From: Austwickia chelonae NBRC 105200
GTDB lineage: Bacteria; Actinomycetota; Actinomycetes; Actinomycetales; Dermatophilaceae
DNA: 64,000 nucleotides
Direction: 5' to 3'
Assembly (NCBI RefSeq): GCF_000298175.1
Contig: NZ_BAGZ01000005.1
Location: 186,001 to 250,000 of the forward strand
The notes beneath the pieces were generated by a model. That model worked only from the letters and a program-made list of their open reading frames with translations. It did no database searches and had not been told where the DNA came from. Made by a program: the position numbers and the translations under genes. Below, piece after piece: positions 29,252 to 32,966 of the stretch (position 1 is the first letter of the stretch; each line of letters starts with the position of its first letter).

Positions 29252-29325
29252 GGGCCAGTAGCTCAGCCGGTCAGAGCAGCGGACTCATAATCCGTCGGTC
29301 GTGGGTTCAAGCCCCACCTGGCCTA
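29252..29325 (+). tRNA. tRNA-Met (anticodon CAT, probably elongator)
   Basis: Acceptor GGGCCAG/CTGGCCT, D-arm GCTC..GAGC, anticodon stem CGGAC.. with loop CTCATAA, T-loop TTCAAGC, discriminator A. The CAT anticodon could also mark tRNA-Ile2 or initiator; the anticodon stem lacks the three G-C pairs of an initiator. TACACT at 29203-29208 may be its -10. Confidence 0.85.
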
Positions 29326-29363
29326 CCCTTCACCTGACATGGATCTGCATGTAAGGACATGAA

Positions 29364-29419: not shown

Positions 29420-29926
29420 TCACGCTTCCGCGTCGAGCGCGGATGCCCAGCTCCGGAGCGCCTTTTCCAGAGATGCCTGGTCGCCGGAGCCGAGTAACGC
29501 GATGAGTCTCGATTCGTTGGCCATGTGATCGGTGAAGGCTGCGTCGATCACACGGAGACCCGTCTCGGTCAGCCGCGCCATTTTGGCCCTGCCGTCGCCG
29601 GAGGATGAGGGAGCACGCTCCACCAGCCCTGCCGCCTCGAGCCTGTCCAGGCGCTTGGTGAGTCCACCTGTCGTGATCATCGTGGTCCGGGCCAGCTCGG
29701 CGGGCTGCCGCTCGTAGGGCGCACCTGCCCGTCGCAAGGCGCAGAGCACATCGAACTCGCCTTCGGTGAGCCCATGTGCCTCATGGACTGCCGAGATCCG
29801 CGCGGAAAGAGTGGCTGTGAGTCTGAAGAGCCGCCCGAAGACGCCTTGCGGTGAGGGATCGATGTCGGGCCGCTCTCGACGCCATTCAGCCTGGATACGA
29901 TCGACGTGGTCCGCTCCACAGGTCAC
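29420..29926 (-). CDS. MarR family transcriptional regulator
   Basis: A 168-aa winged-helix repressor. Helices FGRLFRLTATLSARISAV, then GLTEGEFDVLCALRRAG, PAELARTTMITTGGLTKRLDRLEAAGLVER, and the wing RAPSSSGDGRAKMARLTETG fit MarR. It starts with GTG at 29926 and has TATTTT six bases upstream, so it is probably leaderless. It is divergent from an EamA exporter 60 bp away, with three phased palindromes between. The inferred role is local repression of the exporter and of itself, relieved by a small ligand. Confidence 0.9.
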   Translation of the reverse strand: MTCGADHVDRIQAEWRRERPDIDPSPQGVFGRLFRLTATLSARISAVHEAHGLTEGEFDVLCALRRAGAPYERQPAELARTTMITTGGLTKRLDRLEAAGLVERAPSSSGDGRAKMARLTETGLRVIDAAFTDHMANESRLIALLGSGDQASLEKALRSWASALDAEA

Positions 29927-29932
29927 TATCTC

Positions 29933-29997
29933 AAAATATCACTTCCCGGGAAGTCTCATTGCTTCCCAGGAAGCTATATTGCTTCCATGGAAGCAAT
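29933..29997. promoter_or_regulatory. Shared marR/eamA promoter with three phased palindromic operators
   Basis: Three palindromes sit exactly 20 bp apart: TTCCCGGGAA (29943-29952), TTCCCAGGAA (29963-29972) and TTCCATGGAA (29983-29992). The third extends to a perfect 20-bp palindrome (29978-29997) that contains the ATG of eamA. The -10 of marR is at 29938-29933 (TATTTT) and that of eamA at 29975-29980 (TATATT), each six bases before its start codon. The MarR protein is the likely ligand; this is inference. Confidence 0.75.
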
Positions 29998-30940
29998 GCG
30001 CCTACGCGATGTCCTCACCACGGCTGTCGCACCTACCGCCTGGGGGTCCACCTATTTCGTCATCCGACACTGGCTGCCCGCCGGTATCCCGCTGACCGGA
30101 GCGGCACTGCGCGCCCTGCCGGCCGGCCTGCTGCTGATGCTCCTCGCCCGCCAGCTCCCCCGAGGGTCCTGGTGGTGGCGCACCGCCCTCATCAGTGGAC
30201 TCACCGTCGGTGGCTTCTTCGCCTTGATCTACGTCGCCGGTCAACGACTGCCCTCAGGTGTCGCGGCCACGCTGATGGCCAGCTCCGCCATCGTCCTGCT
30301 CGTCATGGGGCAGGTACTTCTCGGTGAGAAAGCACCCCTACGCAAATATGTCGGAGGGTTCGGCGGGATCATCGGCGTGGGGTTACTCGTCGGCGGAGCT
30401 TCCCTCACTCTCGACCCGATCGGCGTCGCTGCTTCTCTCCTCGCAATGACTTCGTCTTCACTGGGCTTCGTCCTCACCAAACGGTGGCAGCCTCCCGTCC
30501 CGCCCCTGACCTTCGCCGCGTGGCAGCTCACCGCAGGAGGGCTCATGATCGCGCCGGTCGCGCTGATGATCGAAGGCAACCCGCCGCCGTTGGAAATGAG
30601 CGCTGTGGTCGCTTTCACCTACCTCGTCATCATCGCCACCGCTCTGGCCTACGCCGTCTGGTTCCACGGCCTACAACGCCTTCCCGCAGGCACGGTAGGA
30701 CTCATCGGACTACTCAACCCACTTTCCGGGACACTGATCGGACTTCTGGCTGCCCACGAGAAGCTGAGCACGCTCCAGGTCGCCGGCACCGTGATCATCC
30801 TCGCCGGTGTGACTGCAGGCATCGACCGCAAACCCGAGGAACGCGGAGAGATTTCTATGGAATCCACTGGAGAGAAACCAGCTGTGCCACACGCAGAGAA
30901 AACTCCTTCGGATTCAGAACTGCTCTGCACGAAGCAGTAG
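29987..30940 (+). CDS. EamA/DMT-family membrane transporter
   Basis: A 317-aa protein of two EamA repeats, about ten membrane helices (for example TAWGSTYFVIRHWLPAG, AALRALPAGLLLMLLA, VGLIGLLNPLSGTLIGLLA, AGTVIILAGVTAGI). The family exports amino acids, metabolites or drugs. Polar cytoplasmic tail of about 40 residues at the C-terminus. The ATG at 29987 lies inside the third MarR-type palindrome and six bases after a TATATT box; ATG 29996 is an alternative. Control by the divergent MarR protein suggests ligand-induced export. Confidence 0.9.
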   Translation: MEAMRLRDVLTTAVAPTAWGSTYFVIRHWLPAGIPLTGAALRALPAGLLLMLLARQLPRGSWWWRTALISGLTVGGFFALIYVAGQRLPSGVAATLMASSAIVLLVMGQVLLGEKAPLRKYVGGFGGIIGVGLLVGGASLTLDPIGVAASLLAMTSSSLGFVLTKRWQPPVPPLTFAAWQLTAGGLMIAPVALMIEGNPPPLEMSAVVAFTYLVIIATALAYAVWFHGLQRLPAGTVGLIGLLNPLSGTLIGLLAAHEKLSTLQVAGTVIILAGVTAGIDRKPEERGEISMESTGEKPAVPHAEKTPSDSELLCTKQ

Positions 30941-32920: not shown

Positions 32921-32966
32921 ACTTCGAGAGGGACTCGCATCAGCTGATGCGAGTCCCTCTCGAAGT
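32921..32966. terminator. 46-bp perfect palindrome between tRNA genes
   Basis: The segment equals its own reverse complement over all 46 bases, centred on CAGCTG. It follows the 3' end of tRNA-Val(GAC) by nine bases and is probably the end of the Gly-Cys-Val(GAC) transcript. Such a perfect palindrome, without a real loop, is unusual for a terminator. Confidence 0.7.

Follow-up and report, generated by a model that had tools for sequence, protein, structure and literature searches.

A predicted PecS operator array containing the pecM start codon in Austwickia chelonae and related actinobacteria

Two divergently oriented genes of Austwickia chelonae NBRC 105200, located in the 64,000-nucleotide stretch analyzed here (the window), are separated by a short region carrying three evenly spaced palindromes, the last of which includes a start codon. 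Judged by sequence and by the predicted fold of the regulator, the gene pair is an actinobacterial pecS-pecM, a known kind of system. In its regulatory region, PecS very probably binds the three palindromes and shuts both divergent genes, and a urate-type ligand would probably release it. An initial annotation of this DNA had described divergent marR and eamA genes; the pair is present and can be refined to a PecS-type regulator and a PecM-like exporter, and the interpretation offered there is largely supported by the sequence comparisons below. A likely ligand class and a target are proposed for a so far unannotated regulator pair. The features, in window coordinates, are:

29420-29926, minus strand: PecS/UrtR-type MarR regulator gene (pecS), GTG start at 29926, 168 amino acids, Pfam MarR_2/MarR; predicted repressor of both genes.
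29938-29933, minus strand: pecS -10 box TATTTT, six bases before the GTG at 29926.
29942-29953, no strand: operator A, CTTCCCGGGAAG; adjoins the pecS -10 box; an additional, third site, kept in a same-genus relative (L008).
29962-29973, no strand: operator B, CTTCCCAGGAAG; immediately upstream of the pecM -10 box; corresponds to conserved site 2 of the clade.
29975-29980, plus strand: pecM -10 box TATATT, between operators B and C, six bases before the ATG at 29987.
29982-29993, no strand: operator C, CTTCC-ATG-GAAG; the start codon of pecM lies inside it; core of the palindrome at 29978-29997; found in 90 of 93 clade loci.
29987-30940, plus strand: PecM-like EamA/DMT exporter gene (pecM), Pfam EamA E value 1.1e-32; predicted leaderless, start inside operator C.

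The palindromes TTCCCGGGAA, TTCCCAGGAA and TTCCATGGAA start at 29943, 29963 and 29983, with a step of exactly 20 bp; direct reading confirmed these coordinates to the base. They are the centers of a 5-2-5 form, CTTCC-NN-GGAAG (starts 29942, 29962 and 29982), and the TTCC..GGAA cores extend to perfect 6-2-6 palindromes, RCTTCCNNGGAAGY, starting at 29941, 29961 and 29981. The last site lies, as had been noted, within a perfect 20-bp palindrome, ATTGCTTCCATGGAAGCAAT (29978-29997), that encloses the eamA ATG (29987-29989) and is one of two perfect 20-bp palindromes in the window. The sequence CTTCCNNGGAAG occurs three times in the window, in each case in this array. A genome-wide search by pattern matching found the operator cluster at this locus only. 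Of the four copies of RCTTCCNNGGAAGY in 3.54 Mb, three belong to this array; the fourth, inside a transporter-like open reading frame, was not taken as a target. Nor were two matches to the 18-bp box with two mismatches each, one between ribosomal-protein-like and pseudouridine-synthase-like frames with a hairpin adjoining, the other within a long open frame. Since the other genome matches sit at such positions, no wider regulon is claimed.

The regulator belongs to the PecS group by both sequence and fold. Its best sequence matches in the PDB are 8ylh (E 2.7e-32) and 8ylf (E 1.9e-31), titled PecS of Pectobacterium atrosepticum and MftR of Burkholderia thailandensis, followed by HucR. The AlphaFold model (predicted local distance difference test, pLDDT, 89.3) has an extra N-terminal helix, residues 7-18, ahead of the MarR winged-helix core. 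Its best fold matches are DNA complexes, MftR 8ylg (Z 19.2) and PecS 8yli (Z 18.7), and MarR proteins outside the PecS/MftR/HucR branch reach a Z of at most 15.8. The Trp, Asp and two Arg typical of PecS/UrtR proteins are present as W15, D59, R92 and R104, invariant across ten aligned clade members. They align with W20, D73, R106 and R118 of HucR, which serve urate binding and its transmission. The surroundings are those of a PecS-PecM system, with an EamA/DMT exporter gene divergent from the regulator and 18-bp palindromic operators between them.

The design was followed in relatives sampled from 58 genomes and 80 named loci, almost all from actinobacteria, which were oriented and then read. 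The counts refer to 93 loci whose regulators fall in the same protein clade, marked by Lys at residue 91 (Lys91) of the recognition helix, with up to two arm mismatches allowed in an operator match. In 90 of these loci the pecM start falls exactly at CTTCC-[AG]TG-GAAG (77 ATG, 13 GTG), which backs the start assigned at 29987. The next operator follows at 20-23 bp in 89 loci (21 bp in 75, 20 in 5, 22 in 5, and 23 in 4). One locus, L071, is the sole member of the clade with a distance of 32 bp, i.e. three helical turns. The pecS match begins at a variable distance from the pecS-side site, 16 bp at the least and more than 100 bp at the most. With site spacing varying so little and the pecS distance so widely, it is two turns, once three, that is conserved, in line with the two-turn spacing noted earlier.

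Site 2 has the logo TANCTTCCNNGGAAGNTA (92 loci), its arms fixed to one sequence and its central two bases variable. In the same-genus relative, whose regulator is 85% identical, all three arms are identical and the 20-bp step is kept; in two of the three sites its two central bases are not those of the window. Comparison of orthologous intergenic regions had been proposed as a check, and the absence of the palindromes from relatives, which would have spoken against them, was not seen in the same-genus relative or in the clade loci. The usual design has two sites. Three are found in the window, its same-genus relative, L104, L047, L053 and L037 (the last three with one-mismatch copies among them), and these loci continue the same inter-site step. 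By these comparisons, the window is a lineage-specific, three-site, 20-bp-step version of a mostly two-site, 21-bp design that is kept in some 90 loci from several orders of actinobacteria.

The -10 boxes are where the initial annotation had placed them, beside or between the sites and six bases from the start codons. When 92 loci are aligned on the pecM start, T is found at -8 in 100%, A at -12 in 92% and T at -13 in 82%. The clade -10 box is thus TATAnT at -13 to -8, placed for a transcript beginning at the start codon; in the window, with its 20-bp step, it lies one base closer to the start. Mirrored -10 letters appear at -28 to -33 relative to the pecM start, and candidate pecS starts lie 40-41 bp from it in 63 cases, so that the pecS promoter is a mirror image of that of pecM. 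Site 2 is flanked by the two -10 boxes, which share its outer TA letters. The start-to-start distance in the window, 61 bp, is the common 41 bp lengthened by one step of 20 bp. Going by the spacing only, pecM, and pecS as its mirror, should be leaderless. Leaderless transcripts are common in actinobacteria, amounting to 33% in Corynebacterium glutamicum (PMC5401885).

With the start codon inside the operator, one short DNA stretch must serve together as switch, promoter and protein code. The resulting constraint on coding and binding, suggested earlier from the window, is visible at the second codon. Residue 2 of PecM is Glu, encoded by GAA in 90 of 90 loci, whereas the other Glu codons of the same genes are mostly GAG (88 GAA to 327 GAG, 21% GAA). 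It therefore seems to be the operator, and not the protein, that dictates the codons at the pecM start. A Met-Glu start was not found among the candidate starts of PecM proteins beside regulators outside the clade. The locus is probably a clean natural case in which a single short sequence is operator, promoter neighbor, transcription start, start codon and coding sequence.

The operators of the window and the clade keep the 18-bp PecS frame TANCTT..AAGNTA with CC as the inner letters, where relatives have GA. The box TANCTT[GT]ANNT[CA]AAGNTA of Vibrio and other Asn/His91 regulators shares the outer frame, but its inner GA or TA is absent here. The inner letters go with residue 91: Lys91 clade members have CTTCCNNGGAAG, whereas Asn/His91 regulators, where a site was found, mostly have CTTGANNTCAAG in the same 18-bp frame, and Asn/His91 paralogues beside their own target genes have CTTGA, again in that frame. 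These letters suggest that Lys91 reads the changed inner bases. The 93 loci were rejected as independent evidence for the link, the tree showing one monophyletic clade (100/99) plus Lys in L141 and L018 outside it; the CC change is therefore mainly one event. A separate lineage, L141 with its 84% relative L163, combines Lys91 with CTTCC sites, and the two independent cases make the link suggestive. On balance we lean slightly towards the view that in a large actinobacterial PecS clade the box was recoded from GA to CC, read by a Lys replacing Asn/His, that this pairing arose at least twice, and that the operator was fixed on the pecM start as one constrained unit across several orders. In the third lineage, L018, Lys is present and no recognizable site was found. 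The contrast of Lys91/CTTCC with Asn/His91/CTTGA is a specificity switch open to direct testing, in a family for which DNA complexes have been solved, and the CTTCC motif identifies this PecS clade in actinobacteria from sequence alone.

Several observations adjoin this comparison. L141 and L163 have a divergent PecS-like regulator with no EamA neighbor found, and could serve to test the code independently; in L141 the N-terminal Trp is missing as well. Residue 88 is insufficient as the sole specificity switch, as L121 combines Ala88 with Asn91 and has a site of the CTTGA type, and a CTTCC-like match at -195 of L024 is probably due to chance. Operator codes other than CTTCC and CTTGA seem to exist: L019, L118 and L119 have PecS-like regulators with divergent EamA, neither motif, and Gln or Asn at residue 91. 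In L164, which has an Asn91 PecS, CTTGAC sites are 33 bp apart, about three helical turns.

A mechanism can be proposed in which a PecS homodimer would bind each TANCTTCCNNGGAAGNTA-like palindrome. Dimers on neighboring sites, two helical turns apart, would share one face of the DNA, possibly cooperatively, and block both promoters; repression of both genes is predicted because the sites lie over both -10/start regions. The pecM-side dimer would cover the transcription start, which in a leaderless mRNA is also the translation start, and the middle dimer would sit in the spacer, adjoining the -10 box. Release from DNA by urate or xanthine is a mark of the PecS/UrtR class; here too PecS would probably be released by urate or a related purine, and exporter and regulator would be switched on together. 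In this genus a third site appears to have been added beside the pecS promoter, with a step of 20 rather than 21 bp, and this extra site probably provides the promoter of pecS with a separate operator.

The spacing has another possible explanation, promoter economy without cooperativity, which we regard as distinctly less probable though to be taken seriously. Overlapping leaderless promoters would leave about 41 bp between the starts, and each PecS site would be bound independently over a promoter element. The 40-41-bp start distance fits this, as do the -10 letters flanking site 2 symmetrically with the TA of each overlapping the outer operator letters. However, the sites are still 20-23 bp apart where the pecS start is much further off, the one departure is at 32 bp, three turns and not an intermediate value, and three-site loci repeat the same step. 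Some points do weigh against the proposed mechanism. The tight spacing could stem from the geometry of overlapping promoters instead of cooperative protein binding; a consensus scan found a sigma-70 -35/-10 pair for neither gene, no -35 being recognizable; L014, L068 and L078 lack the embedded start arrangement; and the 93 loci, being related and chosen by protein similarity, do not count as independent events.

That the palindromes bind another regulator, the neighboring PecS acting elsewhere, is very unlikely. The operator letters track the recognition helix (CTTCC with Lys91, CTTGA in the same frame with Asn/His91) and the sites are unique to this locus. Marginally less likely still is that the inverted repeats work at the RNA level, forming terminator or attenuator hairpins. 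Two matches of terminator type overlap them, but from the predicted starts the repeats would not be transcribed as whole hairpins, the 5' end of pecM folds no better than shuffled sequences (z 1.09), no Rfam family was matched, and arms fixed to one sequence around a variable center are expected of a protein site. Chance can be practically dismissed: single short palindromes are frequent (32 perfect 6-2-6 palindromes in the window), but a same-arm 5-2-5 triple within 60 bp arose in none of 200 Markov resamplings of the window, and conservation in so many loci of several orders refutes it.

Regulation by PecS through sites of this kind has precedents. Published PecS proteins repress pecS and pecM through intergenic palindromes, one set of which reaches the pecM coding region (PMC6391409, PMC12288460). 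The Agrobacterium fabrum pair is alike in being divergent with three palindromic sites; its PecS represses both genes with urate as ligand, and two overlapping sites cover the promoter of pecM and run into its coding region (PMC12288460). There the pecM sites overlap and the pecS site lies apart, whereas the window has three non-overlapping sites in a 20-bp register. In Vibrio vulnificus, PecS binds 18-bp palindromes (TATCTTTATATTAAGATA) at two specific sites with positive cooperativity (PMC6391409); their outer letters are the same as in the window, but the inner ones are TA instead of CC. Streptomyces coelicolor PecS (SCO2647; Huang, Mackel and Grove 2013) is given as urate-responsive, as cited in PMC9739823. 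The sampled Streptomyces loci in which EamA is divergent fall in the Lys91 clade too and have the same operators, mostly as two sites at 21 bp rather than three at 20 bp. The operator letters of the window are unlike those found with the other PecS proteins that were examined.

Related regulators with other targets can be told apart. TamR of Streptomyces, the trans-aconitate methyltransferase regulator (PMC5487221), is a PecS paralogue; its sampled relatives, with a divergent methyltransferase gene, keep the CTT......AAG frame with operator CTTGANNTCAAG and Asn/His91, whereas the window has an EamA neighbor instead of the methyltransferase and CTTCC instead of CTTGA. HucR of Deinococcus radiodurans and MftR of B. 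thailandensis are members of the same urate-responsive MarR branch and among the closest folds to the regulator. HucR is paired with a uricase gene (PMC5487221), unlike the window regulator, whose divergent neighbor encodes an EamA exporter.

Two further features lie nearby. A tRNA gene with a CAT anticodon is found downstream of the regulator gene (29252-29327), assigned to Met by ARAGORN, although it could be Ile2. At 32922-32965 a long perfect palindrome (CTTCGAGAGGGACTCGCATCAGCTGATGCGAGTCCCTCTCGAAG) lies between two tRNA-Val genes and is probably a tRNA-operon terminator.
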